Below, in pieces: positions 4,030 through 39,910 of a stretch of DNA of 64,000 bases. The DNA comes from Kryptolebias marmoratus (lineage: Eukaryota; Chordata; Actinopteri; Cyprinodontiformes; Rivulidae). A model generated the notes under the pieces. It made no database searches. It worked only from the letters and a program-made list of their open reading frames with translations, and was not told where the DNA came from. Where the stretch lies: NCBI RefSeq assembly GCF_001649575.2, contig NC_051445.1, forward strand, positions 28,900,764-28,964,763, read 5' to 3'. Numbering within the stretch: position 1 is the stretch's first letter; each line of letters begins with the position of its first letter. Made by a program: the position numbers and the translations under genes.

Positions 4030-5724
4030 GTTTTAAAATAATTGTGATCTTACTCCTAAGTGAAGAACTCATGGTTTAGGGTAACTTACCTTTTTGAGAC
4101 TGATAAACATATAAATCCTAGATTTATATATTTTTTTCCCTCTTTTTAAGTGTTGTGCCCTGAGGTTTATAATTTATAAACTGTTAATGATTCATAACTT
4201 CGCTATCATATTTCATGTACCCTGTTACATTTTTCTGCCCTTGGATTCAACACCTGTTTTTCAACATAACAAAGCAAATGAAAGATTCTATCAATTATTG
4301 AAACAAACCTTTTCCTACTTAATAAAAACTGCCTGCTCCCAAACATGTCTTGTTTTAAAATTATACTTTTATAAAACCTGAGTTAACAAACCATACACGA
4401 ATTAGGCCTAGTTTAAAACTAAAAACCTGCTAGGAAGCAGATGTGTTTAGCTCACTGTCAGAAACTAAACAGCAAGCAGTAAAATGCATATTTTACATTC
4501 TAAATAATAAAAAATAACCTTTATACCTAAAATATCAGTTTCTCCATATTATTAGGGTGAAACACCATCAGTGTTTATTGTTGTTTATATTAGTGCTGCT
4601 GCAGTTCTTCTCCTGCACAGTAGGTGTGGCTAATGATAATCTATTAAACTGCAGAAAGTGTCACCAGAAGAAGAGTTTTTCCACTAAAGAAATAAAAAAA
4701 CAAAGGGTTGGTTCTTTATACACAATTGAAATACTTTTAAAAAAAACTTATTTTTTTGTATATTTGATGCCTGTAAAAATAAATCTGCTTCCACATTTTT
4801 CATATGATCATAATGGAAAGTAGAGCAAGTAAAGAGCAGCAGATTGAGGAAATGTAGTCACTTTGTCCTTAAGCAGTCTAAGCCTATAACAGCATAACTA
4901 AGAGATAGCTCAGGAATCCCAAGCCAAGCCCAACTTTAGGATTTATCAAAAAGACAAGTCTTAAGCTTAGTTTTTAAAGTGGTACAAAGATGTCAAACAG
5001 ATGCACCAAGATTTATACACAAAACTGCATTGGTATACATGGCTCCTCAACCAATCCAGTTGTAATGTGCTTTTTTGCATTCTTGAATTAGAACAAATGT
5101 GTTAATCTTCAGATCCTTGCAAAATTCTAGATGTGTGTTCGTTTTCACTTTGTCCTAAAAAGTTTTACAACAGCATGTGTTGGTTCTTGTTAGGTTACAT
5201 GGCTCATTAGCTCTCCGGTTCATTTAGTGTAGTATAGTACAACTGAGGGAACAAATGAACATGTTGGAAATGGCTCTGCCATTGACACAAGAGACTTTGT
5301 TTCATTTACTTAATTTTCCTATTGGGTATCTTTAAAACCTCAAGGCAGCTGATTTCAAATCGCATTTGGTTTTCAAACTTATTTTGTTTGATATGTCTAT
5401 TGTTGGTCTGCTTTCTGACAAGGATTACCAAGGAGGTTTCTGGGTTTCAGTCCCCTCACGATTTTGAACAGAACAAAGTGGTTACAAAAAATGTAGAATG
5501 AGTGTCTGGTTTGTAGAATATATTTTCCATATTTGATTTAGTTCTGTAAGTCTCAGTCATGTATGCATGAATTTGTAAATGCTTGTATGCATCTTCACTC
5601 AATGCGTGTCCATCCTGCTGTCAAATGTATTTGAAGCAAACTCTTGAACTATTCAGTTTAAACTCAGTGCACATCCATTATCTAATTTTGAGTAATATGT
5701 AATGTCAAAGATAACAGTAAAGTC
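4030..5724. other. No gene recognised
   Basis: AT-rich sequence. Open frames up to 88 codons (for example 4557-4823, plus) show no recognisable domain. The leucine-rich start of that frame looks signal-peptide-like but stands alone, with no support from neighbours or splice sites. A short GT run lies at 4020-4032. Confidence 0.45.
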
Positions 5725-5729
5725 TACAG

Positions 5730-6366
5730 TGACAAGGCAGGGCTTGACAGGATTCAGTACTCGCAGACACTGACAAAGTTTTAGAATGTTTATTGTAGAC
5801 GAACAACAAAAAGGATTTCTGTCTCTGGACTGGACACTCACGTGACTACCTGGAGGCAGGACCAGAACAGGTAAGTCTGTCGAGGGTTGTTGGTCAAGTG
5901 CAGACAAGAGTGTCTGAATGGGGCTTGTGCGAGAGAGAGAGTCCGGGGCCAGGCGAGGGGCTTAAACCAGTGCGTCCAGGGTAAGCAGCCAAATCCAAAA
6001 AGGGGTAATCCAAAGAGCGAAGTCCAGTAGGGAGAAGCGAAGTTGGTAACCGTGAATCAGAGTCCAGAAAGTTATCCAGCAAGGAGAAGGCAAGGCTCGT
6101 GGGTGGTGGGTCAGGCAATGGTCAGGAAACATGAAGTCAGACATGGGCTGTGGAAATACTCTAGACATCTACTAGGAAGAACCATTAAATAATCTGGCAC
6201 TGAACTACTGAGAGAGGTGAGCTAATATTCTGAGAGGATCAGGTGAAGCTAATTGCAGTGATTACAGAGGCGTGGAACTAGGAGGTGTGGCAAGGCTGTG
6301 GAAAGTTACTGGGACTGTGGCATGACTGAGAGCAGGAGGCGTGACAGGAACAGTGGAGCTGTGACA
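5730..6366 (-). mobile_element. Solo LTR with TACAG target duplication
   Basis: A 637-bp block begins TGACAAGG and ends GCTGTGACA on the plus strand, so it has TG...CA ends in both readings. It is flanked by the exact 5-bp duplication TACAG (5725-5729 and 6367-6371). A TTTATT at about 5788-5793 reads AATAAA on the minus strand near one end, so I orient it minus. There is no internal coding region, which fits LTR-LTR recombination that left one LTR. The style resembles 60575-61170. Family assignment (Gypsy or ERV) needs a library search. Confidence 0.75.
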
Positions 6367-6404
6367 TACAGAGCTTTTTATTTATTTGAAATTATCTGCC
6401 TTGT

Positions 6405-6955
6405 TGTGTTTGTGCCAGTGCACAGTAAATTTTGCAGTGTAAAATCAACACTTAAAGAGTTAAATTTACCACTGTGTCCGAGTCTACTTGGTCCTTATCG
6501 GAATTTGTGTCAATTTACCTCTTTCCATAGTGTTACATTTTCAGAGAACAATTTACCTCAAAATAGAGTTAAAAATTAACACTGACAAACACTGTACAGT
6601 GTTAATACAACTTAACAATAGTAGTCAAATAACTGATGAGAGTAAATATGATTCGAAGTAGAGTTAATAAGTTACTCCACTGTGGTGAAAAATCCACTCT
6701 GATTATCATGCTTTTTAACACTGCATAAAGTTATTGAGGGTTAACACTGAAGGCTCATAACTCCTATGAGTGTTAATTTTACACACTACTGTGTTGATAA
6801 TTTACTCTTTTGCTGTGAAAAACCAACTTAGTCAAAATCTAACACTGCACAATTAAACATGTAGTGCTATTTTTACACTTTTGTAGAGTTAAATGGCATC
6901 AATACATTAAAATTCTACAATTGAGTAAAATCAAGTTACCACAGAAATGCATTTA
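6405..6955. repeat. Tract of recurring GTGTTAA / TTAACAC motifs
   Basis: About 550 bp in which short words such as CAGTGTTAA, AGAGTTAAA, TTAACACTG and TTTTACAC recur in both orientations. The tract could fold into many short stems. It has no coding content. It lies just past the probable 3' end of the broken minus-strand gene that ends at 9348, and could be subterminal repeats of a DNA transposon. That link is inference. Confidence 0.5.
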
Positions 6956-7314
6956 ACTTCACTTTATTGAACAAAAGCACATTTTAAAGATCCATCGTCA
7001 ACTTTTAGTAGTGTTACAGTGACATATGATGTACTTCCATAGCAGGCTTTGAGTTGACCATAAAAATGGTTTCAGATGTGCCTGCCGTGTCAAGCAACCA
7101 ATCTCAAGTCTACAAACAGTTTGTGACAGTTTTCAAAAGAATTTAATAACAAAAAGAGAAAACTACACAACAAAAATTCTGGGGGTGCCTGTCAGGCATC
7201 CCTCCTGACAAATAGGATAATTTAATTTAAATACTTTTGCATACGACACACAAGGTGTCGACCCTTAATTGGTTAAATGACAAACAGAATTTTTTCTTTT
7301 TGAGCAACAGCACA
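6956..7314. other. Spacer with a minus-strand polyadenylation signal
   Basis: TTTATT at about 6962-6967 reads AATAAA on the minus strand and could serve the minus-strand gene relic at 9348-13517. Otherwise no feature was seen. Confidence 0.35.
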
Positions 7315-8130
7315 TTAACCCTCTGGGGTCTAGGGTGAAACTGGACGTTTTTGGACAATTTTAAATTTCCTTCATATTTCATCCTAAAAGTGGTTTAACC
7401 TGCCATGTTTGGGGTCATTTTTTTCAGCACAACCTCCCAAGTGTGATTTTTAAGTAATTTTTTACTTTTGACATACTGTATTACCACAACAGACCTAAAA
7501 CCACACAAAAACATAAAATCTGAGTGGAAAATTCTTATTTTTTTTTACTGTAAAAACCACAAACATACTTAATAAAATGTTTTTACAACTTAGAATGCAA
7601 ATATAATCAGTAATATTCATAAACATGTGAACAAATTGAGCTAACAACAAAGTTATATACACTTTCTCCATTAAAATGCAGATAATTTCTTAAGCGTTTT
7701 TTAGACCAAACAATCAGGAGTTCTAAAAATTGCCATAAATCCTTTGTACCACTCATATAAACAGTTTCTGTTCAAAACAAGGCAGAGGGGCACATCACAT
7801 TCTTAGTTTTGGCCATTTTCTATGTCCTGTTCATGCAGGATCATTCAGGTAAATGTTATAAAATATATCCTGATGCATGCTCAAAATATGCTTCCAAAAG
7901 ATGAATCTGAATCTGTCTCTTGTTATCATTTTGGCTGGAAGGGAGACAGACGAAATGTGATTCTGTTTCCAGTAATCCTTCTCTAAAAAAAACAATTGAT
8001 CACCTAGTTCATCAACAAAGTCCTCACTCTCTGTCCCAGTCTAAATGACACCCTAACTATAAAATCCAAACACACTAAATATCACAAAACACGTAACTCA
8101 CTCCCGCGCTCGCGTTTTTTTTTTTTTTTT

Positions 8131-8343
8131 AACTTCCTTTAATTTTTACGCCTCTTTCTTCTTCTCCCTGTGGATTTTTAGTCGCTTGACAGATAACGTT
8201 GAGCCTCCGTCAGATTGAAGAGGAGGNTTTTTTTTTTGGCGCCGCTGAACTTCCTTTAATTTTTACGCCTCTTTCTTCTTCTCCCTGTGGATTTTTAGTC
8301 GCTTGACAGATAACGTTGAGCCTCCGTCAGATTGAAGAGGAGG
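8131..8343 (+). repeat. Exact 96-bp direct duplication across a one-base N
   Basis: 8131-8226 and 8248-8343 are identical over 96 bp. They are separated by a single N (8227), a poly-T run and GGCGCCGCTG. An exact repeat abutting an assembly N suggests two overlapping contig ends that were not merged, rather than a biological tandem. Confidence 0.8.
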
Positions 8344-8624
8344 GGGTGTTTTTTCATTCAGCTGGGTTGGGGGTGAGATCGGACGGAGGATGGGGGAGTT
8401 TTCTCCTGAGAACTCCCCGGTTTTGGTGCTTCTCGCTCTAACGCGCTGAAAATATGACGCCGATTTTCAAAAAAAATATATGTGTCATGAAAAATTTATC
8501 ATAACTCTGGTTTTCCTTGACCTATCGAGATAATTTAAAAACTGGTGTAAAGCTTGAAGTCTGGACTTTAGAGATAAATTAACACGGAGTCTCTGAGAGG
8601 GCGGATATTTTCCGCTAGAGTATT

Positions 8625-8692
8625 TTAACCCTTTAAGGTTGACGCACGCTCTGGAGCCCGCTCTGGAGTGGGCGTCGACCTTAAAGGGTTAA
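8625..8692. repeat. 68-bp hairpin with TTAA ends
   Basis: Arms of 19 bp (8627-8645 and 8672-8690) are reverse complements except for one G:T-compatible position. Both outer ends are TTAA. The loop holds the direct repeat GCTCTGGAG twice. It could be a minimal piggyBac-like terminal structure. Confidence 0.7.
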
Positions 8693-8699
8693 AGGGAAA

Positions 8700-9347
8700 T
8701 GAGCGGCTTGTCACAAGTTAACTTCAGCCTAATAAGGACACCACTAGCACAATGACCCTAGGTCTGCATAAAATGGCAATATGGAACCACTGTTGCGCAG
8801 ATCTGCTCATGAGTTCAGATGTGGGTGCATGCACACACATTAGTGTGCCACTCTGCAGCACTTCTTAGCAGGTGAAAGAAATCTGGTTCAATCAACAACA
8901 CCCTAAACTCAGGTCATATAAGGAATCCACCAACCATTTGCCTGGTTTCGCATCAGAGCTGAGGAAGGCAAACACAGCCTCCAATAAGCATGTCATGGGA
9001 AAGGACTTAAACTAAACAAGGACTACCGGTAAGCCTTTCACTGTACTCAGTTAAAATGCAAATTTGATTTTGGTTTTACATTTGATAAAAAAGACATGGA
9101 AATTCTAAAACTGAGATGGAATGTAATTCTAAAATGTTTGGATTAATTCTAAAATGTTTGGAATTGTTTAATTAAACCAAACTCAGAGTTCAATAATTTA
9201 ATACTTAAATTTATGGTTAAAATTGTTGAAGAAATGTATGTGTAAGGTTAAAAATGGAATTGGTCATTAAGATAAATTAACTTTAATCCAAATGTCTAAA
9301 ATGTTTGTTAAAAAATGTTGTATGTGTTTTGTAGGTTTTTCACCTCT
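8700..9347. other. No gene recognised
   Basis: AT-rich. The phrase ATTCTAAAATGTTTGGA occurs twice in tandem at about 9127-9161. Nothing else was recognised. Confidence 0.4.
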
Positions 9348-9839
9348 TCATTGCTTCACACTCACCTGTGAAAATAAAAAAGGTTTGAGTGAAATCCTGA
9401 AGTCTCTGAAGTCCTCCTTTTCAAGTGTGGGAAGCCATGACATTATAGAACACTTGACAACCACATATAAGGATGTTTCTGTCATACCATACTTCATTTG
9501 AACATCAAATGGTTTGAAGTAGAAAAGATCATTTATATGCAAAACTTTTCGAACATTGTCTGGATGGAGCTTGACCTTAAAGGCGTGGTAGTGGTCATCA
9601 AAACACATGGTTTCCATCAATTTTCCACAGAGCAAAACACTTTCATCTTTTATAGCAATTGTTTCAAGCTTACAAAATACAGGCATCTCATATGCTACCT
9701 CAGTACATACAATAAAGTCAGGACGGTACTCTGAACCATAGTATTTTATCCACTTGGTAGAAAACACACCGGTTGACAAAACAATTCCAAGTTTTGCAGC
9801 AATCGCTGCACCCTCTTTTATCTCATAAAATGTGTTGGG
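9348..9839 (-). pseudogene. C-terminal part of a broken fish-expanded zinc-finger family gene
   Basis: A 143-codon open frame (9779 down to 9348) ends in a natural stop. It contains phrases such as KWIKYYGSEYRPDF, YEMPVFCKL and HYHAFKV, which I associate with the C-terminal end of an uncharacterised, transposon-like protein family expanded in fish. The frame can be extended upstream to about 9839 (ending near SAIAAKLGIV). The matching N-terminal parts lie at 12703-13517 on the same strand, about 2.9 kb away. The interval holds unrelated repeats, so the gene was split by insertions and the middle is missing. A promoter or splice signals were not found. Confidence 0.55.
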
Positions 9840-10840
9840 TCACATGTCAGTTTGGGTTATTTTTGCATTAATAGCCTAATGCAAAACAATGAACTGTTTC
9901 ACCTAAACTAAAATAACCCAGTGTTTTAAGAAGAAACCCAGATGTTTCTCTGATCTTATCGGGAGGAGAGAAACAGACCCCCTTTGCAGCAGACTAAAAG
10001 AATGCATAAACTAATCACTGTTGGTGACTCTAAACCGGAATTTACACCCTCTTTTCAGACTTCAAGCTTGAAAGACTGGATCCTAAGTGTCAAGAGTAGT
10101 ACTTTGGGTGAAATTTACATTCTGAGAAAGGAACAACCAAGGACTTGGTTAAACTCAAGGAAAAGATAGCGCCTTCGGTCTACTGACATCAAAGGAATTA
10201 CCACATTCCTTCAAATCTAGTTAAGCTCAAGCACCCCAACATCCTGGGCTCTGCTTAGTACAAAGTTTGAACTATACCAACCCTATTGTGAACTTTCTAA
10301 TCTGTTCCAAATAAGTTTCTGGACTGCAACCCTCATGTTAAAATGTGATATTTGTACTAATAGTCTTTTCTCCTTTCAGTTACAAGAGTCACATGTTTCA
10401 TCTTTTAATGTTTGTAGTTGTCTATATATTTTCTGTTTTGCTATCAATCATTTGCATATCACATGACAGATGAAACATTATTAACATTATCCTGACTCCA
10501 GGTTGCAATCGTATCAATGTGTTTACAGAGCTAATAACCATGATTCATTGAGATTAACTTTATGTGAGAAGACTTAATTTAATCACTGATCGAGACTGCT
10601 TCCCCTTTTGCTAACTAAATTTAATTTTTGAGGCAGAAAAGGAATGCAGAGATCAAATTACGATAGTTTCTCCTTAAATGTCAACAAAAATGCCCCTCTG
10701 AAGAGGAGCAATGCTCATTGGCTGAATGATCACAGAAACATCCTGCCTTTTTTTGAGAACCGCGGCTCTGATTGGACAGTAGGTGTGCAAAGGCCAACCC
10801 CCAACTTTGTTTAAAAGTTGCTGGTTCCTGTTTCCAGCTC
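9840..10840. other. No gene recognised
   Basis: AT-rich spacer between the C-terminal gene relic and the repeat at 10841. Small open frames lack recognisable domains. 10700-10830 is GC-richer with a TTTAAAA box and may be promoter-like sequence of the following LTR-like repeat. Confidence 0.4.
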
Positions 10841-11640
10841 TGCTGTTTTTCCCCCGTTCCTGCTCCCAGATTCTTCTTTGTTTTTCGTTCTCTGTGCGTT
10901 TTCCTCGTCCCATCTACTTTTACTTTTAGACCTCTTGTTTTCCGTGTTGCTGACTTCATCAGATTTTTGTTTTGAACCAAATTTTTTACCATTAACATTG
11001 ACGCTAATTTAGTAAATCAGTGAAATAAATAACAGTCCGAGCCTTTATTAAATTCCCCTGCGTCGTCTTCATGAGACCGACTCTTCATTCAGCCTAGCCA
11101 TCAAAACCAGCTACAAACGGCTCTCCTAGAGTCGTTCACCTGTCTGCTAAAGACGAGCTGCCGACTGTTTGGACCAACGGAACCAGCCGAAGGTTCAACT
11201 CAGCTTCCGCTGACAGAAAGTGCCCTGGAGACGAGCCCTCCCGGTCACCTTCTCCCCGCCGTGGCCTAAAGGTTCCCTACTGGTACAGAGAGACAGCGGC
11301 CAGATGGATCCTTCTCTTGGTAGGACAACTCTTTGAACCATTTGCTGGCTAACTTCTGGTGGTGCTCTGTGCTGGTCGATAAGAGTTAGTTTCACCCAGG
11401 TGGCCAAATTAACAACAATAATCGTCATTTCCATTAGTTAATTCCTCAAACCCTCTCTGCCTCAAAATCTTAACCTCTTAGATTTGATCAGACTTTCTGT
11501 ATAACCTACATGCCATTATAACGCCTCGATCAGTATCTTATTACCATATTCAAATGTGTAACATTTTCATAACCTGCCAGAACTTGTGTTATATTTGTCT
11601 GTTCAATAAACGTCACATAAATAGTGCAAAACGTAATTCA
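10841..11640 (+). repeat. LTR-like interspersed repeat (family shared with 3395-4020)
   Basis: Sequence with a promoter-like start and an AATAAA signal near 11027 is followed by 11050-11640, which is similar to 3395-4020 (shared GAGACC, CCGAAGGTTC, CATAACCTGCC and GTCACATAAAT blocks in the same order). It sits inside the interval that splits the zinc-finger-family gene relic, so it probably inserted there. I could not define TG...CA ends or a target duplication. Confidence 0.45.
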
Positions 11641-11735
11641 GCGTAATTTTGGTGCTTTTTCGTTAATGTTTTTGAAGCTTTTTAAGTGTTGCTTGAAGAA
11701 ATTATGTTTGGCTTCATAACGCATGCACCATGTAT

Positions 11736-12690
11736 GCAGGGGTGGAAATAAGCACCCCAATTTGATCAAGACACACGCCACTGTGGCGGGTTGGCAATTT
11801 GAAAAGAAAAGGTGTTATTTGTCCTCTTGACATATAGGAGGCAGCAATGTGCTCGAGTTGCTGCTAAATGCAAGAAGGAGAAAAGTTTATCAGACACTTT
11901 TTACCAGTTGGTGGCGGTATTGATTCCTTCAGTTGTTTACCAACCACCAATAAAAATCAAGAAGAAGAAACAATTTGAAGAACAGCATTAGCAATGTGGC
12001 GTAACATTTCGGGAGTTAAGCGGGTGGCAGACAACAAAAATGTTTTTCAAGAGTAGTCGAGGGAAGAACCGAAAGTTAAACGTTTTTTTAAACTAAATCA
12101 ATGACGTCATGACGTCGGTCAGTGTGCGTTCGCACCTACAGCCAGTGTTCTGACGATCTGTGCTTCCTCGTCAGATTTTCCTACCATAGCCTGGCTAAAC
12201 AGCTATGTCTAACTGTTGGTGGTACCCGTCAAAAACTGCTACCGTCATGTTTACAAACCGAAAACTATAGCGGTTCATGAAGTGGAAGCTTAGGAGTTAT
12301 GCTTAGCATAGCATTGGAACATTTATATCCACAACGAAAACCTTTCTAAAACCACAAAAATCACTTCCTTCATCAGAATATCCTACTTGTTAAATATAAG
12401 CAGGTAGCACAAATAGATCTATGCATTAAAAGCAGCAAGTGTCTGAAAAACATTACAACTTACATACAAAAACTTACAAAAGCACAACAGAAATACTTCA
12501 AAAACACTCCACAGAAATAAATTTCACTTGTCTGAATTTTGTATGTACAGATATGCATCTTTTAATGGTTTAAAATAAAAAAATAAAATAAGAAAAATCT
12601 AGTTATTTCCATGCAGTGTCCAGAAAGAGGTGTTGTTCAGCTTGTAGGGCACCACAACTGCTTCCACCCACCTCGATCATCATCATCAGA
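11736..12690 (+). mobile_element. Possible hAT-like fragment
   Basis: CAGGGGTGGAAATAAGC near 11738 resembles the terminal sequence of hAT/Charlie-type elements. A matching right end was not found. The interval up to 12690 has no recognisable transposase frame. It lies between the two halves of the zinc-finger-family pseudogene. Confidence 0.3.
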
Positions 12691-12702
12691 AATAACTTTT
12701 AG

Positions 12703-13517
12703 TCACAACAAAAAATAGTCGCTGGTAAAATATTTGAGTGGCTGGTAAAAAAAATTAAAAATTAAAAAATTAAAGAGCCTGAACATTTCTGCAAGTTCTT
12801 GTTTTTGTAAAATGCTCTTCAGTGTTTTCAAAATAGGTATGTAAGCAAACCTATCAGTTACAATGACTTGATCATGTGTCCCAGTACTTTTGTTCTTTCT
12901 GCAGTCAAATCTTGTGCCAAGCACTTTTTTAATAGGCTCAACAAATCCCCATTTCTCTAAGTGTTTGTTTAGCTTTGCCTATAAATTTAGAGGTGTAAAT
13001 GGATTTTGCAATGTTTTGAATGATTGTTCTATTTTGTTCCTGTTTTCTGTATCCTCTGAAGACAAGCACTGTAAAGCTACATCCATAGCCTGACTTTGAG
13101 TCTCAAAAATCACTTCTTCCATGGATGAGACAAATCTCTTAACATTAGACTGGCTTAATCCAGCTGCTCTGAGTTGTGTGACAGCAGTAGCACACATATC
13201 TAAAATGCTGTTGTTGGACTTCAACCGAGTAGAATGTTGTGGCTTTCCTTTCTAGATTAGCTCTCACCAGCTCTCCTGCGTCACCAAGGTCTGCTCTGCT
13301 TGAATTTACATTGCCTACTTGTTGGTCAATATTGTTGGTGTGTTTGGTGTTTAAATGTTACCTAAACCTAGAAAACGTTCCAAGCACACGACCACATCCA
13401 GACTGAGCACATTTAAGGCAAAGATTCTTTTCTATCCAAGTGACCATGAACTACTCGTATATGCCAAACAAGTGCATTTGTGCAACTTAACTCTTTCTTA
13501 CAAACAAAACACTTCAT
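12703..13517 (-). pseudogene. N-terminal and central parts of a broken zinc-finger family gene
   Basis: Reading down from an ATG at 13517, the frame starts MKCFVCKKELSC and continues to WHIRVVHG, a C2H2-type finger. A second cysteine-rich segment (CLKCAQSGCGRVLG) is in another frame, so there is a frameshift near 13400. Then come an open stretch at 13224-12979 (ending near SSEDTENRNKIEQSF, TLQNPFTPL) and another at 12924-12750 (GTRFDCRKNK, YIPILKTLKSIL). These belong in order to the same fish-expanded uncharacterised family as the C-terminal piece at 9348-9839. At least two frameshifts and a 2.9-kb interruption make it a pseudogene. The ATG lies 22 bp beyond the stop of the neighbouring pseudogene. 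Confidence 0.6.
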
Positions 13518-13539
13518 GTCAAACAGATCTGTTTAAGTA

Positions 13540-14690
13540 TTAATGAAGCAACTTAGCACAAATTTCTGCCACACGAGGACTTTCCTTCACTTTGCCCTCA
13601 TCTATGTTGTACACAGTGGTCTGGATGAATCTAAACATGTTGCACATCATGGTGTTGTATGTTGTGGCAAACACATAATGTGCCTTAAACAGTTCATCAA
13701 AGGCAACAAAAGAGGAGGTTGACCTGGATACAATGGCATTTTTGTCAAGGATGATGAAGAACTAGTGGACTACTTTCTTGCTCCGTCCTACAGCCAGGAG
13801 ATAAGGTTGTGTGCTTGTCATGATCGCATCAAGATGTTCCTGGATGTTGGTTCCTGTCTGAGAAAAGAAAAAAAAAAACAATACCATTACAATTCCATGG
13901 CTGTAACATTACACAAAAACAGCTTTCATACTCCCTCAGTGAAAGAACCTCAAATAAAACATTAAATAAAATTTGCAAGAAATACAAACCCTTCTTTAAG
14001 ACCACAAGATGCTTCTCTGCTTGTGAAGCAGACACTTTCCCTGGTCTCTTACGATCCAAGGCAGAGGGGGGAATCAGGTGCAGCAGCAGTGGTTGGAAGC
14101 TTTCTGCATTGTTGGATGATCTTTCTCTTGAATGTGGTTGTCCATTTCTCCAGAAATTTGTTTGAGACATCTTCTCCAAACATCAGAACAAAATCCTGCT
14201 CCACCTAGGATATGGAGAGTGAAAAACTTTAACATTTCATAGCCAGATTAATGGTATTCATTTTCACTTGTCACAAAAAAACCCCACATTTTTTACATAA
14301 CTGAAATTATCAACACAGTCGAAATAACCATTTAAATAATTACCAAGCCTTTGACATCTTTTAAACATGGAAAGACAGAGAGCACATTGCTTGACTGTTG
14401 GGGGTCAAGGACCATGTTGCGTCGGAAGTCAAATGTGAGCTTCATCTTATTCTTGATTGTGTCCTCATCGGCTGAATGCTTAATCAGTGCGATGGCTTCC
14501 TTACACTCTTCTTCACCCAGGACAGTCTCTGGAACAAACTGGGTCTCTCATCTAGCAGCTAGTCCTCCAAGCCCACATTCACGAGATGCTTCTTCGGATA
14601 ATGCTTACTCGTCTGACTCTTGCAGTGGATCTCTGAATAGTTTTCATCCTCCAGGCCAAGTACACAGTACTACTTTCATAATAATGTTCC
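13540..14690 (-). pseudogene. Three-exon relic of a SAMD3-like fish-expanded family
   Basis: Three exons can be read with canonical introns. Exon A runs from about 14550 to 14344 (…VFPCLKDVKGL, then GTAAT donor). Exon B is 14204-13990 (VEQDFVLMFGEDVSNKF…, later RKRPGKVSASQAEKHLVV). Exon C is 13853-13540 (NIQEHLDAIM, YLLAVGRSKK, FVAFDELFKAHYVF, VYNID, stop). Exon C has one in-frame TAG at 13764-13762, where a sense codon is expected. The phrases match the C-terminal half of a protein family often labelled sterile-alpha-motif-domain-containing 3-like in fish, probably transposon-borne. The N-terminal half is missing. The name is by pattern memory; a protein search would settle it. Confidence 0.6.
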
Positions 14691-14774
14691 TTGGGGATTA
14701 AAAGGATAACAAAAACAGACACCTAAACATATTTGATAGCCACAGTCAGACTCAGATCTAAAAGCTGGTAAAAG

Positions 14775-15239
14775 ATTTCTATGCAAACTGAGGTAACTGG
14801 TCTGCATCTGTGCCATCAGGCGATGGGGCCTGAGCTCCCATTTTGAGACACTCTCTTCAGCTACAATCCCTTCTTAGGAAGTGAATCGTGGGCTCTTACG
14901 CTCACGTTGTCGGAAAGCAACTGCACGAAGACGAATAGGGAAAGTTATCTGTTGCACGTCTGAAGACCCCAGCTTATGACCATATAGGGAATTGAATGTA
15001 CTTGAATTCGTACTGTTCAGGTCCATCCCAGTGGGACGTGTGTGTGTGTGTGTTATTATACAGCTGGGTGTGGTAAATGTTTATAAAAAGAAGCAGCCCC
15101 AGAGAAACAGGGGATCTTCACTGATTGGGCCAGAAGTCTCGATTTGGCACGGACTCTGTTATTTTGAATAAACTCTCACTGTTCAAGAATAGCTTATGTC
15201 TGTAAAGTCATTTCTTTTGATCAGTACATCGTTGTTGCA
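14775..15239 (+). mobile_element. Retrovirus-like LTR, copy A
   Basis: Looks like the U3-R-U5 of an LTR: a TATA-like TTATAAAAAG at 15081-15090, an AATAAA at 15167-15172, and an end near GTTGTTGCA at 15239. A GT microsatellite lies at about 15040-15052. The U3 part is related to 59015-59370 in reverse orientation (shared phrases for CCCACTGGGA, TACATTCAATTCC, CCTAAGAAGG and CAGATGCAGACCAGTTACCTC read there). The 5' edge is not sharp, since similarity stops near 14775. A gag-like relic follows 600 bp downstream in the same orientation, which fits a 5' LTR of a broken provirus. Confidence 0.6.
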
Positions 15240-15884
15240 ATTATGAAGACCCAGAAGAACGTCCACCATTTGAAGACACTTAACACTTCTAGTTAAAACT
15301 ACAAGCAGGTGAATCAGAAAATAAACAACAAATGCCAATAAAATGACAGATCACATTATTTTGACCAAATGTGCTGAAAGCAGACATCTGAGAATCTAAA
15401 AATATAACTTGTCACAATCCACCCAGAAGTTAGACCATTGCATGCACACCCAGTATGTGCACCCACACTAACCTGCATGTTGCGTTACTATGGCAGTGAT
15501 GCAATCATGTCAAGGAGGTATTACCAGAAGGCTGGCATCCTGAAGGTGAAAACTCCAATTTTTTGTGGAGCTTGTACTGTTTTGTCTGATTTCAGAAAGA
15601 AACTGTTTTGAGCAATGGCATGACAAGTACAGTTGAATGCCATAAGGTTCCAAATGTTTGATGACAACTTTTTGATTAGACTTGTAAAAACGTTTAGTCT
15701 TCACATTTAAAAGTTTAAATTAATATGCTCCATTTGGTGTCAAACACAGAAGCTTCTCTTGTTTTATTAAAATCAGATAAAATACATGACGGTAATTAAG
15801 TAAAAAAAAAAAAAAATCATAGTATTTTAGACAAGGGATGGTGGCATTTTTAAAAATTTAACCCCTGAAGCACCTCCAGAGGAT
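15240..15884. other. Probable proviral leader; no gene
   Basis: Between the LTR-like block and the gag relic. It contains a poly-A run at about 15800-15815. No clear primer-binding site was recognised. Confidence 0.35.
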
Positions 15885-31157: not shown

Positions 31158-31165
31158 TACTCCTG
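31158..31165 (+). repeat. Target duplication, left (TACTCCTG)
   Basis: Matches TATTCCTG at 39820-39827 in seven of eight bases. The RTE-like LINE runs up to this point and resumes after the right copy. Confidence 0.6.
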
Positions 31166-31480
31166 TACAGTGGCCCTGAAGTGCAAACCACAACAACATT
31201 AAGGAAGCACGCAAACAAGAAAGGAAACACACAAACAAAACAAGAAACACACAAACAAAAGACGAAGCACGCAAACAAGAAAGGAAACACACAAACAAAA
31301 AACGAAGCACGCAAACAAAAAAGGAAACACAAATAAAAAGACGAAGCACGCAAACAAAAAACAGAAACACAATTACATTAACAAACCGGAAAAGGTAGGT
31401 CCCAGTGGGAGACCTGAGAAATCGCTGATTGGACGACACCACGTTTGGCTTTTGAACCGGAAGTTTTTCTGGCTTTAGTG
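31166..31480 (+). repeat. Left terminal inverted repeat with 20-bp tandem units
   Basis: Its reverse complement matches 39525-39819. Inside (31203-31370) are about eight units of about 20 bp alternating GAAGCACGCAAACAA and GAAACACACAAACAA forms. The unique inner part (TAGGTCCCAGTGGGAGACC, GGACGACACCA) also matches the right arm. It ends just upstream of the integrase ATG. Confidence 0.85.
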
Positions 31481-31494
31481 CGTTAGTTAAAAAC

Positions 31495-33182
31495 ATGAAT
31501 GTTATCGGTGATCCAAATGTTGCTACCGCTATCCAAAAATATTTTAAGTCAGGACATACATACGAGGTGATACTGGACATGCTCAGGACTAACCACGAAG
31601 TGTCAGTTAGTATGTGTTCACTGAAGACATATTTGAAAGCAGCTGGACTGTACAGACAACGTAACTACTCTCCACTTCCTGAGGTGAGGCATGCCATTAT
31701 GACCAAGCTGAGAGGACCAGGGCAATTGTTTGGCTATCGGACCATGTGGCAAATTCTCAAACAAAAACACAACCTGCGTGTCAAACGTCATGAAGTAATG
31801 AGACTGTTGAGGCAGCTGAACCCTCAAGGCATCGCTCTGAGGACTCGCAGGAGGTTTACAAGACGCACGTATCATTCTATGGGGCCCAATTACATATGGC
31901 ATGTAGATGGCTACGACAAACTGAAGCCATTTGGCTTGGCCCTCTCGGGATGTATTGATGGTTTTTCAAGAAGAATGATGCGGCTTGTTTATGGGGCAAC
32001 AAACAACAATCCTTCTGTCATTGCCCAGCATTATATAAACTGTGTCAAGAGTCTTGGAGTGATACCAATGAGACTACGAACAGACCTCGGGACAGAGAAT
32101 GGGACTGGCAGCAATACAGTGTACCCTCCGTCATGCACATACGGACTATTATGCTGGATCATCAAGCCACAGTTATGGATCATTCACAGGGAATCAACGC
32201 ATCAAGTCATGGTGGTCTTTTTTTCAGAAGAGGAAGGTGGGTACATTTGTTTTGTAGATGTGATGTACAGTGAAAGTTAATCAGTACTGATTTTATAACA
32301 TTTTTTTGTTTTGCCAGTTATGCCATATTGAGTTTGTTCCCAAAATTACTTAGTATAAGCAAATATTTTGTTGTAAAAATTAGTATTTTCCGTTGTTTGG
32401 TTACACCAACATTTTTAGACATATATCTGTGGAAAAGTAGGAAGCAAAATGAAATGAACAAAATGAACAAAAACAGAACCATTTTTAATACAATGTATCC
32501 CCAGGTCTCAGTTTTGGATGGACTTGTTTGGAGACTTAAGAGATGCCGGACACTCCAATGGAAGCCATGAACACCAAAGCTTGCTAAGATTCTGCTTCAG
32601 CAGAGTTCTGCAGAAAGATCTGAATGAATGCAAAGACCTCTGGAATAAACACAGGATCCGGCCAAGCAGACTTGCATCATGTCCTGGGGGGATTCCAAAC
32701 GAACTCTATCTCTTGCCTCACAGGTAATTAACATCTTCACAGACAGAAATAATGTTTTGATTACATAATAATGCAAAGTGTTGTTATAGCACAAGTTGGG
32801 AAATATATTGCATTATATCATTGTACAAGCTACAGCTGTTAATTTTCTAAGCTGTCACTGCTAGTGCTCAATTATACTGGGTCATATAGCTAGGAAACAA
32901 ATCTGACAGTTCAAACTATTTGTAGTAAATATAGAAAATATCCTTCACAATTCTATTATTAATTCTATTCTGACTTTGCAGATATGGTTCAAGAGACTGT
33001 GGATTTGCTAGAGCGAATTGGATGTCTTCACTGAAGCAAGGCAAGCGATTGAATTATGTGGTGATCAAAACATTGAGGAATACCTACAACAGGCTGTACA
33101 ACAAAATGGACTACAGCAGCCACAAGACTGGGAATCAGCCTCAGAACTGTATTTATTGCTCAAAGACATAGCCAGGCTTTAG
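31495..33182 (+). pseudogene. IS3-type integrase/transposase of the transposon, three exons, frameshifted
   Basis: Exon 1 is 31495-32236 (GT donor at 32237), exon 2 is 32512-32723 and exon 3 is 32982-33182, ending in TAG; AATAAA follows at 33353. The N-terminal part looks like a helix-turn-helix (SVSMCSLKTYLKAAGLYR). The integrase core follows: YIWHVDGYDKLKPFG (first Asp), LRTDLGTENG (second Asp), then QRIKSWW, where related proteins have Glu in place of this Lys (codon 32204-32206). A frameshift near 32103, just after LGTENGT, moves the rest of exon 1 to another frame. A second near 33010-33025 is needed to reach the exon 3 stop. Without these the product would be about 385 residues. It would cut and insert the element's DNA; this copy is inactive. 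Confidence 0.8.
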
Positions 33183-33565
33183 ACACAAACAACCACAATA
33201 TAAACTTTTAATCTTTTGTCTCCTGCTCCTTTTGCTCAAATGAAACCTGATACATTATTCAGAACAGCAACAGGTGGATTAAAACATTTTTTACACTAAA
33301 ATCTGTATATTCAGTCTGAACCCTGAATACAAACCTGACACTTTAAATTCTGAATAAAACTGTATAACAAAGTGTTCAGCATTTGTTTCAACTTGCCTAT
33401 AGTGTAAACTGTTTAGCTCTGAGAAAGAAAAAGCAAAAGGTGATTTGCAAAATAAAGTAGGTTTTTGCATTACTATGTTACAAAAGTACCTTACAGAGAT
33501 GGTATGCCAACAGCATCTGAACTAGACTGGCTAGGAATAAGTAACTGATATTTGACCTTTGAGAT

Positions 33566-35529
33566 TTAATAACATCTGAATCCCGGAGCATTTTGGATCC
33601 CAAAGTCCATGTTTGCCTTAAAAACACTGTAGGATTCCAAAAACGGCAGCTTCAGTGTATTTGCACAGGTGTTTGCAACTGGAAAAGGTGAATCACTTAA
33701 AAACTCAAGGCGTGGAGATGGCATCATGCCTGCTGGTGGAAGCGTTGCAAGACCTGTAGCAAACATCAGCAGGTCTACCAGAGAGACAGCAGTAATTTTC
33801 TCTGAAAGAAAGTAAACATTGTAGTTGTTGGATTCTGCATTAAAGACAATTAATTTCCTTATTTCTGGTTTCCTGCATGTGGGTTTACTCTGGGTATCCC
33901 GGTTTCCTCCCACAGACCAAAAACATACATGTTAGGTTAATTGGTAACTCTTAAATTGTCCCTAGGTGTGAGTGAAAGTGTGAATGGTTGTTTGGCTCCA
34001 TGTGTCCCTGTGATGGACTTGTGACCAGTCCAGGGTGTCCCCCGCCTCTCGCACAGTGACTGCAGGGGATAGGCACCAGCTCCCCAAGATCGGGTTAAGA
34101 AAATGGATGGATTTCTTCTTTCCTTCCATTAAAACAAAATTTAAAAAAAAAAAAAAACATTTTCAAACAACACATTTTTGAATAAAACAATCTGTCCATG
34201 CAAACCTTCAGAATCAAGGAGAGAATCTGCCCAAAAGCCTAGTGTTTTGCTCTCCTTTTGCCGCCTGTTGCTTCTGTCTGGGCTGAGATCTGGTCTGAAC
34301 ATGGTCTCCAAGTCTGAAGCAGTCAGGGCCTTGGGAGAGAAGCATAAGACTGGGGACAGAACACTGAAATGCTGCTGCAGTGCCGGGAGGAAACCAAGAC
34401 TTGCCAGTCTATATTTGAATCTGTTAAAGATAGACACATAAGTGTTATACTTGATTTATAGCATAGATATGAACTATTTGCATCAATGTGTGTAAATATC
34501 AACCAGATTTTTAATTGAATATATTTAAAAAAANNNNNNNNNNNNNNNNNNNNNNNNNNNNNNNNNNNNNNNNNNNNNNNNNNNNNNNNNNNNNNNNNNN
34601 NNNNNNNNNNNNNNNNNNNNNNNNNNNAAAAAAAAAAAAAAAAAAAAAACAAGTAAAGCTAAGGTGTGTATGTAGGACCACTCATACACAAAACCTTTTG
34701 CAGTGCTCAAAAATCATTAGTAAATGAGGACAAAAAGATTATTTACACATTTTAAAAAATGTTTTCACTCTACAATAAACCAAAGTGTGTCAAGGAACAT
34801 CATATTTTTATAAATCACTTTGAAAATGTATTTATGTACCATGACTATGATTACTCTGGGTAATTGTAAATCATTCTAAACAACTTCTAGAGTTCTGTTG
34901 TCAAAAGATGACAAAACCTATTCTACATAAATGTCTTATTGGATAATAAAAGTGGTGAAACTTATAATTTGGCAAGTATTGCTCAATATATTCCAACATT
35001 TTCCACTTACACAGATTTTACCAGAAGGGGACAAAAGAGGTGTTACCAACTGAAGATAAAAACAAACAAACAAAAAAATTAAGGAAAGATGATGGTTAAA
35101 TTTGATACCTGATCAGGTAATAATGTGATGTTTCTTATCAGATGGCATGGTTGTTACTTAATTAGTTTTTCATAATAAATTAAGATCTCATGATGTCAGT
35201 GGCAGCTGGGAAACAACTGGAAATATGTAAATCATAATGAGTAAGGAGCTTAGAACTTTGGAATAGTTTTAAAATATTTAAAACTATTAATAGCAGACAG
35301 GTTATTTGTTACCGTTGAATGGCACTGTGGTTTCTGTCAATGATGTACCATCTGAGATACTCCTCCACAAAAGCTTTCTTCACACAAGTCTTCACACCTC
35401 TGAGGCAGCCAGCAGTTTGGAACATGGTGCTGTTTTGCAAAATTATATTTTGCAGAGATTCTTCTGATTCTGCTTCCAGGACCTAAAAAACAAGCTGTTT
35501 ATTGTACAAACAAAACAACCCCCCCCCCC

Positions 35530-35570
<41 letters not shown>

Positions 35571-38500
35571 CTATCAATATGACATTTTTTTTTAACAAAT
35601 ACAAATATAGCATAAAAATTATTGTGATTTCACATCTGTTGAGACAGGCTTAAATCTATCCTTTCAAAACAAATAATTCTGTCAAGCATAATCTTTTATC
35701 TGAATGTGAAAATAACTTTTTAGTTGTTCTACAGTAAATCTATTCCCTAAGTCTAGGTCATCTCCTACCTGTTGTAGAAGTTTCCCTATCTCCTCATCTT
35801 TAACATTTTCTACTGTGGCGCTGAAACTTGGATTCTCTGTCATGTAGTTGACCAGGTTCATTGAGAGAAAATGTGGTGCTGGCCCCCCATGTACAATGGA
35901 TACAGCAATCATCTTTCCTGCTAAAAAATACTCATCTTCCCTGGCAGCTGGTATATAGAGCACAGTTATATTAGTTAATTAATACTTAGATCTGTCTATG
36001 ACAAAAACATTAGCATATTTTGATTTTAGTAGTACAACTACTTCACTAAACCTAAAATGACTTACCTCTTGAATTGCACACAAGATAACGGCTTTCTGGG
36101 GGTCCATCGAAGATAGGGCGATTTCTCAAATGGTTCATGAGAAGTGTGAGGAATTCATGCCTTGGGCCACCTGTATCCAACCCTTCTTCAAAGCAGCCAG
36201 CATCATCATTAAACTTGATGAACATGTCATGGTTGTCAGAGTATGTTCTGCGCTGAAATCCGCAAACAGCTCCATCCCACAAATCTGACAGAGATATATT
36301 GAACCTGCTGACCTTCTTGTGGTCAATAGCCAGTGCAAGATGTGCGATAATTTCATGTGCCTGCACATTTGTTTCTCTAGAAAAATAAAAAACTTATTTT
36401 AAAACAGCGTATGTATCTCTTTACTGATTGATCAGACTTTGCATAATGTAATTATGTGCAGGACCAGATGCCGGTTAATTGAATACAAAATGTTAAAATT
36501 ACTAACACTGGTTCTTCTAGGGGCAGATCTTTCTTTTTGTTATCAGTTAGATCTTCAGTGTCATCTTCATTGTCAACCACAATGGGTTCAAACAGGTTGG
36601 TATAGTTTCTGCAGAGAGAAAAAGTGTACACAGTATAGATGAGAACAAACAAATGCATAAACATGCAGTTTCAGCTTTCCTTAACTAAACATTTAATTTA
36701 TGTCAGATGTCAAATATAAAATATTTAAAATAAATACATTTATAATAGGGGTGTCTATATCATTTTGTTACATCTCCTGGAATAATTACAGGAGCACACC
36801 TGTAACCTGTACACACCTGTAATAGGAGCTCTGGACAGTGAGACATTCACTTGTGCCTGGATTGTTTCCGTTTTTATCTAAATCTATAACCTGAAAACAC
36901 AGAAAGAAGAAAGAATGAAAATTAATTTTTGACCAATCTAGAATTATTTTAATATCCTAATAATTTACTTAAATGATTGAGATGGAAATCTGTGGATTTT
37001 GTCAGTTGAAAAAAAACGTTCATATTCTGCATTAGACATTGCTGATGGAAGAACATTATAGGTCAAGCATATATATTAACTTGTATTTGCTTCTATACAG
37101 ACTCTAAAGAGCTTATAGTTGACATGTATGATAATATGAAAATACGGGATGTGAGGAAATGTACTGTACAACAACATTAATTAAAACTAGCAAATGGTGA
37201 ATCAAAATCTAATAGCAAGTGAAGGCAGTAGAGATGCTCTGTTTGACTAATAAAACAGTTTTTACCTGCTGTACTTCATTTGTGAGCACAAGATCCCCAA
37301 CACCATTCCTTAGAGGACAAAGAAAACCATGTTTTTGTGTATTATGAACATATGCAGTCCTGTAATAAATAATAAGATCACCCAGTTTTCATAAATATCT
37401 TGTTCACTTTATTCCCTTGTAACTCCTCTGCGAATCATGCAACTAAAAAAGACAAATGAAAACATGGAATGCCTGAAAGCACTGTTTTTGGAAGTACAAT
37501 GCCACCACTATTGAAGTGAAGTGATTTTAGTCATTATCACAAAAAACATGGAAAATTACTAGGTACAAGTTCTTGAATTAAACTCTTATGAGCTATTTTT
37601 GTTACATTTGTCTAAAAAAATCTTTACTTGTAAAATGAGCAAGACATTGAAGAAAGCAAGGGTTGTCTGATAATTATTTCCATGCCAGTATTTTTGACCC
37701 TTAAAAAACAAGCATCTAGAAAATCCAACTCAGAGGATTTTTTAATAACAATCTCGGGGTCAGAGTCAGACAAGTCTGACAATTTTCCAACTGCAAAACA
37801 TAAAAAAACAAGCTGCCTTAATTTCTACTAAGTGATAGTACTATATTCTGTTAACAATATTAAATTGTATCTCAAAGCATACACACAGCACTGGTAAAAA
37901 CTCATGACTTAGTAGATCCCAAAGTTTCTGCATTTCAAGTTTCCAGGAAGTTACTTGACATGTAGGAGCTAATCTATGTATACTATTGACTTGATTGGTT
38001 TATGCCAGTGATGCTTAATTGCACAATTTCAAATTTTAGATTTGTTGAAGTTAAGGGAATGTGCCAAACTCCACACACAAACATCTCAGCTTACCTTCTT
38101 CAAAGTCCCTTTTCAAGCAGATGAAAAGAGTTATCCTTTGATATGGCTTGCCAAGTTCAGCCTTATAAGCCACAAGGGTAAAAGGTCTTTGTGTCCCAGG
38201 GATATTAATGACCTCTGTCCTATCTGGATACAGAAGGAGGAAAGGTCCATCTTTTACATCTTTGTTGAAGTTTTTAACAGCCTGATTGAGCAGAGTTGTG
38301 GCAGAGACGTCCGGGTCTGTTGCAAGTGAAATAGTTCTTCCACGTTGTGGCCTTAGACCATCCTTCTGAATGACCATCAAACCAACATTTATCTGAAAGA
38401 AAAAAGATGTGGAGGCCTGAGCAATGTTTAAAAAAATCATTGTCAATTTTTTTATTTTTGTTTTTAATTCCTGTTGTATTACGTGTTGCAGTAACAACCA

Positions 38501-39495
38501 AATAGACCAATTAATTACTAATAACAGTAAAAGCAGAGTGATGCAAACTTTTACTTTTAAACTGCAGATTTGATACAAACATAACAATAGTTGTTAATTT
38601 ATTAATCAATAGCTGATTTCCTTTTTTGACTGACCATTAATTGGCAATTTATTGTTACTGTTAAACAAATATTCTGCATAGCTTTGCTATGCTGAACTTT
38701 CTTCCTAACAGACGAATAGTTAAAAGCTCCTTGTTTTCAGTCGGAGCCATAGCAAACCTACCCAAACTTTTATTTTTCCCTTCTGCTTTAACCCCTTTCT
38801 CCCAAGAGAATACTTTTGCCGCTCCTCATTTTTCTTTTGTCGGTATTCAAGGAAGGTGCTGAGGGCTGGAGTCGGGCAGGATTGGATAGTTTGTTGTTCT
38901 AAAGTCAAGGAAAGAAGTAATATTACAATATCGCACATCACATACATGCAAACAGGCAACATGTGGTACGAACCAGAACAACACAGTTTACCATAGGAAA
39001 TAGTGCCCAAGAATGTAACAGACATTTATATCTGACCTTTACATTGCTGCTGTATTATTGATTTGTATGTGTACTTTTAATTTAGTATTTGCAGGGCTCT
39101 CAAGTTTCGATCTGAGCTTGGAGTGAGATCTTGAGCCACTAGACGTTGTTAGAATACATCATCACCTAATTTGCATATTTGGTGATGTTAATCAGGCTTT
39201 AGGAGAGAGGATTATCAACATTGGCAAGACAAAATTGAGTAAAAAACACTCAAAGTATGTTTAGAACTATGAATGAACTTTCTATGTAATTTCAAAACTT
39301 TATTGCTTTGCTAACGTTAGCGGTCTCAGCAAATTACTTCATCCATCAGAAACATAATCCTTTATTTATGCTTATTAACTTACTTGAAGGTTGTGGAGTA
39401 TTGTTGATACACGTTTTTTGAAGCCTCTTGCCACAACTACTACAAAAGTTCGGTGACTGCTCAACCAGCTCTTTTCCACAGTTTGGGCAATACAT
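33566..39495 (-). CDS. Zinc-ribbon plus HECT E3 ubiquitin ligase carried by the transposon, 12 exons
   Basis: Exons read on the minus strand: 39495-39384, 38898-38762, 38392-38095, 37790-37628, 37308-37266, 36890-36817, 36608-36507, 36376-36066, 35947-35769, 35482-35313, 34420-34206, 33801-33566. Their sum is 2040 nt (679 codons plus TAA). All introns start GT and end AG, all phases agree and no stop interrupts. Residues 1-25 form a zinc ribbon (Cys 3, 6, 18, 21). A HECT domain fills roughly 320-679: [25 protein letters not shown], and [10 protein letters not shown] with the catalytic Cys (codon 33667-33665, about residue 647). HECT enzymes pass ubiquitin through this Cys to substrates. It resembles fish G2E3-like genes. 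Exon edges are my reading; expression is unknown. Confidence 0.8.
33880..34115 (+). repeat. SINE-like fish repeat inside a HECT intron
   Basis: Same family as 27610-27870: GGTTTCCTCCCACAGACC, ACATACATGTTAGG, GTCCAGGGTGTCCC and GGATAGGCACCAGC, then an A-rich end. It lies in the last intron of the HECT gene. Confidence 0.7.
34529..34649. other. Assembly gap in a poly-A run
   Basis: N at 34534-34627 is flanked by A runs on both sides. It lies in the intron between exons 10 and 11 of the HECT gene, so it does not hide a predicted exon. Confidence 0.9.
35519..35567. repeat. Poly-C and (AC)n microsatellite
   Basis: About 14 C followed by AC repeats, in a HECT intron. Confidence 0.95.
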
Positions 39496-39524
39496 GGTGC
39501 TGTGACTGTCTTCCCGCCTACTGA

Positions 39525-39819
39525 AACGCTGAACGAGCAAAAGCCCGAACTTCCAGTTCAAACATGGTGTCGTCCAATCAGCTATTTCTCAGGTCTCCCA
39601 CTGGGACCTATCGTTTCCGGTTTGTTAATGTAATTGCGTTTTTGTTTTTTGTTTGCGTGCTTCCTTTTTTGTTTGTGTGTTTCCTTTCTTGTTTGCGTGC
39701 TTCGTCTTTTGTTTGTGTGCTTCCTTTTTTGTTTGTGTGTTTCCTTTCTTGTTTGCGTGCTTCATCTTTTGTTTGCGTGCTTCGTTAATGTTGTTGTGGT
39801 TTGCACTTCAGGGCCACCG
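39525..39819 (-). repeat. Right terminal inverted repeat
   Basis: Reverse complement of 31166-31480, with the same 20-bp unit tandem array (39640-39785) and the same end GGTTTGCACTTCAGGGCCAC. It lies just upstream of the HECT start codon (39495). That ATG is about 325 bp from the element end, as is the integrase ATG from the other end. Confidence 0.85.
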
Positions 39820-39910
39820 TATTCCTGCCTCCACTTTTATAGGTCACCCTGTGTTCCTCCCTCTTTTGGAAATAGGTGTTGACTACAGCTATTTCCATCC
39901 TTTTAGCAAA
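39820..39910 (-). pseudogene. RTE-like LINE, continuation after the transposon
   Basis: Begins with the TATTCCTG copy of the target duplication and continues the RTE-like sequence interrupted at 31165 (CACCCTGTGTTCCTCCCTC). It ends near 39910. Confidence 0.6.

Follow-up and report, generated by a model that had tools for sequence, protein, structure and literature searches.

A fish DNA transposon with IS3EU-type ends that pairs an integrase gene with a gene for a predicted HECT ubiquitin ligase

Positions 31166-39821 of the window, by which we mean the whole 64,000-nucleotide stretch of Kryptolebias marmoratus DNA that was analysed, were found to form a single DNA transposon of 8,656 bp. The element has IS3EU-type ends and contains two convergent genes, one for an integrase, which is broken in this copy, and one for a predicted HECT ubiquitin ligase. 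In the reading that we tentatively prefer, while judging it somewhat short of probable, the ligase would tag a host silencing protein with ubiquitin at the element's own ends. The ends and target duplications of IS3EU elements are known; the pairing of a HECT gene with an IS3EU-type integrase is new, as far as the literature was searched. An earlier note, made from the letters of the window, had described an IS3EU-like integrase transposon with a HECT gene inside its own terminal inverted repeats (TIRs), and this description was found to hold for several copies belonging to two deep families.

The element and its two genes

The termini of the element read TA...TA on both sides, which places the right end at 39821; the earlier note had the left end right at 31166 and the right end two positions short, at 39819. 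The inverted repeats of about 300 bp that it had noticed were recovered by alignment across ~290-320 bp, and much of each TIR consists of a 20-bp tandem subrepeat. The left TIR starts with TACAGTGGCCCTGAAG and the right TIR with TACGGTGGCCCTGAAG, and the right end reads ...CTTCAGGGCCACCGTA. The target duplication is 6 bp long; its left copy reads CTCCTG and its right copy TTCCTG, with 5/6 positions equal. The 7-of-8 flank match reported before is therefore real, but it is made up of the element's terminal TA and this 6-bp duplication.

A long interspersed nuclear element (LINE) on the minus strand flanks the transposon on both sides, resuming beyond it as had been proposed, with an RVT_1 match of 2.6e-16 on the left. 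When the element and one duplication were omitted, the two flanks joined in frame (...KREEHRVTYKSGGRSMQVDYILCIRGNL... / ...YKSGGRSMQVDYILC...). Thus, the flanks themselves give the empty site. The available part of PMC10045372 describes IS3EU families as having TA...TA ends and usually 6-bp duplications. The window element shares these termini and the duplication length, together with TIRs and an integrase-like DDE transposase. The features of the element are as follows.

31160..31165, no strand: target duplication, left copy CTCCTG, at the in-frame LINE empty site
31166..31484, plus: left TIR, 20-bp subrepeats at 31204-31361
31495..32106, plus: integrase exon 1, first part, with the catalytic Asp in WHVDGYDK and RTDLGTENG
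32108..32230, plus: integrase exon 1, second part, past the frame break; NQRIK in place of the catalytic NQRIE of relatives
32506..32721, plus: integrase exon 2
33015..33179, plus: integrase last exon (part past the second frame break)
33569..33799, minus: HECT gene exon 12, catalytic cysteine and C-terminus
34207..34419, minus: HECT gene exon 11
35312..35482, minus: HECT gene exon 10
35769..35948, minus: HECT gene exon 9
36067..36375, minus: HECT gene exon 8, where the HECT domain starts
36506..36607, minus: HECT gene exon 7
36816..36890, minus: HECT gene exon 6
37266..37307, minus: HECT gene exon 5
37705..37791, minus: HECT gene exon 4 (3' boundary uncertain)
38096..38392, minus: HECT gene exon 3, predicted ubiquitin-like (beta-grasp) domain of 99 residues
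38762..38896, minus: HECT gene exon 2
39385..39495, minus: HECT gene exon 1, holding the start codon and the zinc ribbon (CPNCG...CSSCG); immediately inward of the right TIR
39532..39821, minus: right TIR, 20-bp subrepeats at 39641-39800
39822..39827, no strand: target duplication, right copy TTCCTG

The tail-to-tail arrangement of the two genes was confirmed, as was the presence of an integrase on the plus strand. The latter matched Pfam rva_4 at 3.6e-26 in the window copy and at 3.7e-78 in family II, the other of the two deep families, and it appears to be of the IS3EU type (an IS3-type DDE transposase). The window copy is broken by two frame breaks and by replacement of the catalytic Glu with Lys. 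This Glu was present in 18/18 aligned integrase relatives, in which the D, D and E columns were invariant; we take these three residues to be the catalytic ones.

The minus-strand gene, in which a zinc ribbon and a HECT domain had rightly been recognized, has 12 exons (39495-33569), all of them open, and retains the catalytic Cys. Its protein combines a zinc ribbon (Zn_ribbon_3, 1.4e-6), a predicted ubiquitin-like domain and a full-length HECT domain (Pfam HECT, 1.8e-16, positions 13-304 of 306), whose fold matches solved HECT domains. The catalytic Cys, located in the C-terminal lobe, was invariant in 21/21 proteins. In alignments it falls on the cysteine of the WWP1 motif HTCFN and on the TC motif found in AREL1 and WWP1. 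The protein is thus a predicted E3 ubiquitin ligase with plausible chemistry. The last intron of the gene contains a repeat insertion (33840-34110), which by eye we take to be like the tail of a short interspersed nuclear element or LINE, and the exons on either side remain open. Intron 10 contains 94 N (34534-34627), possibly an assembly gap.

Pairing and mobility across the genome

The K. marmoratus genome that was searched comprises 680.7 Mb, and the match lists obtained from it are lower bounds. HECT exon 8 matched at 15 places, window counted, and 10 of the other 14 were examined together with some 8-10 kb of flanking sequence in each direction. A convergent integrase was found at 9/10 of these places, at eight by tblastn and at C14a by an integrase profile, which was built from fish relatives and run on 6 of the 10; with the window, the count is 10/11. 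By coordinates alone, with two single queries, 12/15 places had a convergent pair within 12 kb (13/15 with C14a); this procedure adds C10, C6 and C9:1.13M and misses C14a, C5 and C2:36.3M. Since the density of integrase loci predicts 0.0009 convergent loci per HECT place, as against the 12/15 found, the pairing is not due to chance. When all HECT fragments among the matches listed were counted, 16/25 loci were paired.

Both ends were read in eight HECT-bearing elements (window, C12, C14a, C5, C1b, C7b, C9b and C14b); C1a, C9a and C7a were left out of the end count, one end being not found or outside the sequence examined. TA...TA was present at both ends of all eight, and also of three elements designated L036, L037 and L038. 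Perfect 6-bp duplications flanked 6/8: C12 (AGAACG), C5 (TACCGG), C14a (GTCCAG), C1b (TTTATG), C7b (CAGGTC) and C9b (ATACAC). The C12, C14a and C5 elements measure 9,405, 8,101 and 11,486 bp, respectively. In the C5 element (L022/L023, joined 10402-12227), open frames lie inside the HECT-bearing element, probably as a nested insertion; by eye, they presumably represent a piggyBac-type transposase.

Family II is represented by C14b (L026/L027, joined 4260-15407), a complete element. C1b, C7a, C7b and C9b were each 99.8% identical to it across 9.7-10.7 kb, at separate sites, which indicates that this family moved recently with both genes. Family II and the window element are ~30% identical in the integrase and ~40% identical in HECT.

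Long association, selection and copies without HECT

Relatives were taken from the best 120 of 199 HECT proteins and the best 120 of 597 integrase proteins. Linked HECT-integrase pairs were picked by eye and are known from protein records, a shared contig being assigned where species and contig size were the same. Gene numbers were consecutive in Archocentrus centrarchus (LOC115776738/9), Notolabrus celidotus (LOC117828943/4) and Dissostichus mawsoni (F7725_007646/7). The pairs of Takifugu flavidus (31,142) and Brachyhypopomus gauderio (463,084) each appear to lie on one contig, the Poeciliopsis prolifica pair has near gene numbers and two Oreochromis pairs are linked by chromosome only. These eight pairs from other fishes, five loci of K. 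marmoratus and the window made up 14 pairs, across which the HECT and integrase identity matrices correlated (r 0.87, 91 comparisons, Mantel p 0.0005). Since some pairs share species history, this correlation shows joint descent and not its cause.

Between the window and C12, in which HECT is 80% identical, the ratio of nonsynonymous to synonymous substitution rates (dN/dS) was 0.30 for HECT (645 codons) and 0.21 for the integrase (372 codons); to judge from these sequences, HECT is under purifying selection. This value argues against HECT being a passenger, that is, a captured host G2E3-like gene without benefit to the element, as do the presence of HECT in two deep families, its co-divergence with the integrase and the pairing at 13/15 places. 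Many of its relatives are called "G2/M phase-specific E3 ligase-like" in databases, which speaks for such a captured gene, although the name is probably an automatic label. The window protein resembles G2E3 in its HECT domain and in the database names of its relatives. G2E3, however, bears N-terminal PHD-type zinc fingers, whereas the window protein has a zinc ribbon and a predicted ubiquitin-like domain, and several HECT copies of the window type sit between transposon ends. No PHD finger was found in the window protein by Pfam (E up to 1); the models that matched were HECT, several for zinc ribbons and, weakly, FYVE (0.4). A passenger would also be compatible with the spread of HECT-deleted copies, the transposition of a HECT-less relative and the many end pairs too short for either gene, all described below. 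We regard this explanation as distinctly improbable.

Several observations weigh against a ligase that serves its element. The C2 (L037) and C21 (L038) copies each match C12 over 3,392 bp at 99.94% identity; they retain the integrase stretches of C12 but, of HECT, only the final exon and a portion of the one preceding it. They have one deletion junction in common and different perfect duplications (AGTTAT and AAAAAC), so the HECT-deleted form moved after the deletion. At C8 (L036), a 4,675-bp element with TA...TA ends, a perfect duplication (GAATTT) and an integrase was read, in which no HECT was found; C11 gave a match equal to it in length and almost equal in score. A HECT-less relative has thus transposed in the same genome. 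The C8 integrase is 41% identical to that of the window, compared with 29% for family II; because it is the nearer of the two, HECT was either lost in C8 or gained more than once. The earlier note had named TIR copies lacking HECT as evidence that would tell against it. Such copies do exist; those on C2 and C21, the two of the same family that were read, are internal-deletion derivatives, and those on C8 and C11 belong to a different family.

Other findings point in the same direction. C5 has HECT and a perfect duplication, yet neither tblastn nor the profile found an integrase there. Among the matches listed, HECT adjoins only 16/50 integrase loci. C14b holds both genes, but its flanks (ATGTTG / GACAAA) do not match, perhaps as a result of recombination between copies; its sisters C1b, C7b and C9b have duplications. 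Between the window and C1a, its closest HECT copy, dN/dS was 1.07 for HECT and 0.34 for the integrase. In C1a, HECT is missing exons 2-6 and contains a stop, and the value of 1.07 is that expected of decay after insertion, yet it lends no support.

Family-I ends occurred 356 times in the genome (190 + 166), as compared with 0 for a reversed control. Among 100 listed end places there were 25 facing pairs, 16 of which were 0.2-1.3 kb apart, too short for either gene; the others comprised one of 2.5 kb, two of 3.7 kb, one of 9.4 kb (C12) and five of 11.9-15.6 kb. In two of the five longest, C4:29018842-29032513 and C3:15334461-15347694, the first 10 kb are nearly all N, and these may perhaps be recent copies left unresolved by the assembly.

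The zinc ribbon and the possible targets of the ligase

The long retention of both genes together in related elements suggests that the second enzyme helps the element against its host and is not a stray passenger. In the mechanism that we propose, the transposase would cut at the TA-terminated repeats and join the ends to a target cut in staggered fashion, from which the 6-bp duplication would result. The TIRs probably drive the expression of both genes, because each start codon sits just inside a TIR. GCTGATTGGACGACACCA occurs in both TIRs, 54 and 70 bp ahead of the two start codons, and its GATTGG we take to be, on the other strand, a CCAAT box. The zinc ribbon, which heads both proteins in some related fish elements, may bring the ligase to the DNA or the complex of the transposase, where a repressor at the element ends would receive ubiquitin from the HECT cysteine. 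Since a form missing most of HECT has moved, the cut-and-paste chemistry probably does not require the ligase in cis, and the ligase is likely able to act in trans; an anti-silencing role is therefore favoured over a catalytic one.

A CxxC...CxxC ribbon near the start was present in 38 of the best 120/597 integrases (37 by another rule) and in 45 of the best 120/199 HECT proteins. For 5/38 integrases, the nearest HECT ribbon came from the same species, genus or family and, at 78-97% identity, beat the nearest other integrase ribbon. These were from Archocentrus (P0135/P0033, 97%), Oryzias latipes (P0145/P0048, 97%), Takifugu (83%), polypterids (82%) and Misgurnus (78%), with species labels assigned by hand and some rows unlabelled. 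The other 33/38 gave no such match, their nearest HECT ribbon being from another or unlabelled species or ranking below the nearest integrase ribbon. P0033 and P0134, encoded by neighbouring genes of Archocentrus, are identical in the common stretch up to one point, beyond which the proteins diverge. The O. latipes stretch differs at one residue between the two proteins, which indicates at least two ribbon copies. Because the genes are convergent in the elements read, the two proteins suggest a ribbon exon at both element ends.

From these ribbons, it can be proposed that the TIRs carry a coding zinc-ribbon exon that would put the same address domain on transposase and ligase, that the ligase would strip silencing factors at the ends and that window-type lineages have since lost the transposase ribbon. 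We consider this rather unlikely. The placement of the exon at both ends is deduced from the two proteins, and in Archocentrus the annotation may have joined one exon to both gene models. In the window family, moreover, the ribbon is on HECT only and absent from the integrase, so the shared address cannot apply to the window element as it stands; C9a has a ribbon upstream of its integrase. If the ribbon is indeed inside the TIRs, it would be an unusual way of aiming two proteins at one target.

The similar N-terminal ribbons of the two proteins in five fish groups would also suit a ligase that tags its own transposase, either so that it is turned over, as a brake on excess activity, or so that it is taken off the ends once strand transfer is complete, with the common ribbon bringing both together. 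This possibility, on the unlikely side in our estimate, gains from a pairing and co-divergence kept for exactly integrase and HECT and from comparable constraint on the two genes. It loses from the movement of the HECT-deleted form (L037, L038), though HECT may have been supplied in trans, from the existence of a HECT-less relative and from the missing ribbon on the window-family integrase. Host silencing is preferred over transposase control mainly because of a parallel in fungi. The part of PMC12730594 available describes fungal IS3EU elements that carry TET/JBP dioxygenase and alpha-kinase genes, the TET/JBP enzymes being proposed to counter silencing, which that paper states has not been experimentally validated. 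Both systems belong to the same superfamily and carry extra enzyme genes, one of them opposite to the transposase in orientation; the fungal elements have a DNA-modifying enzyme and a kinase, whereas the window element has a ubiquitin ligase and is found in fishes.

The ligase might instead be directed at host proteins away from the element ends, for example at proteins of the cell cycle or of DNA repair, with the effect that gaps left by excision would be repaired in a favourable phase. The G2E3 name of its relatives and the predicted ubiquitin-like domain, which could be a general partner-binding module, are compatible with such a role. Nothing in the analysis ties the protein to the cell cycle, however, and the resemblance between the ribbons in several fishes suggests that the ligase is addressed to the sites of the transposase; we therefore hold this alternative to be improbable. 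The tagging of a silencing protein at the element's ends remains the reading that we prefer.

RAG1-RAG2 and ProtoRAG are two-gene transposons in which the ligase is of the RING type and part of the transposase. They share with the window element the combination of a two-gene transposon and an E3 ligase, and they differ in that the window ligase is a separate HECT protein. A title in the reference list of PMC4411706 describes the N-terminal domain of RAG1 as an E3 ubiquitin ligase. The word HECT was absent from the main texts of PMC10045372, PMC12763893, PMC9945428 and PMC4255032. No paper with both IS3EU and HECT was found in the literature searched, and Repbase entries may hold an unpublished HECT frame.

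Enzymes that counter DNA methylation and histone marks are already known from transposons (PMC12730594, in the part available). A dedicated, long-kept ubiquitin ligase, if true, would add protein tagging to this arsenal and would help to identify the fish proteins by which transposons are silenced. The results also suggest that a share of the fish genes named G2/M phase-specific E3 ligase-like are transposon genes, which bears on fish gene-family counts. Relatives of the family-II HECT were also seen in a bird (P0341, Erpornis, called G2E3 ligase), a hemichordate (P0342, Ptychodera) and a frog (P0301, Spea); either the HECT group extends past fishes, or some of these entries are host genes or contamination.

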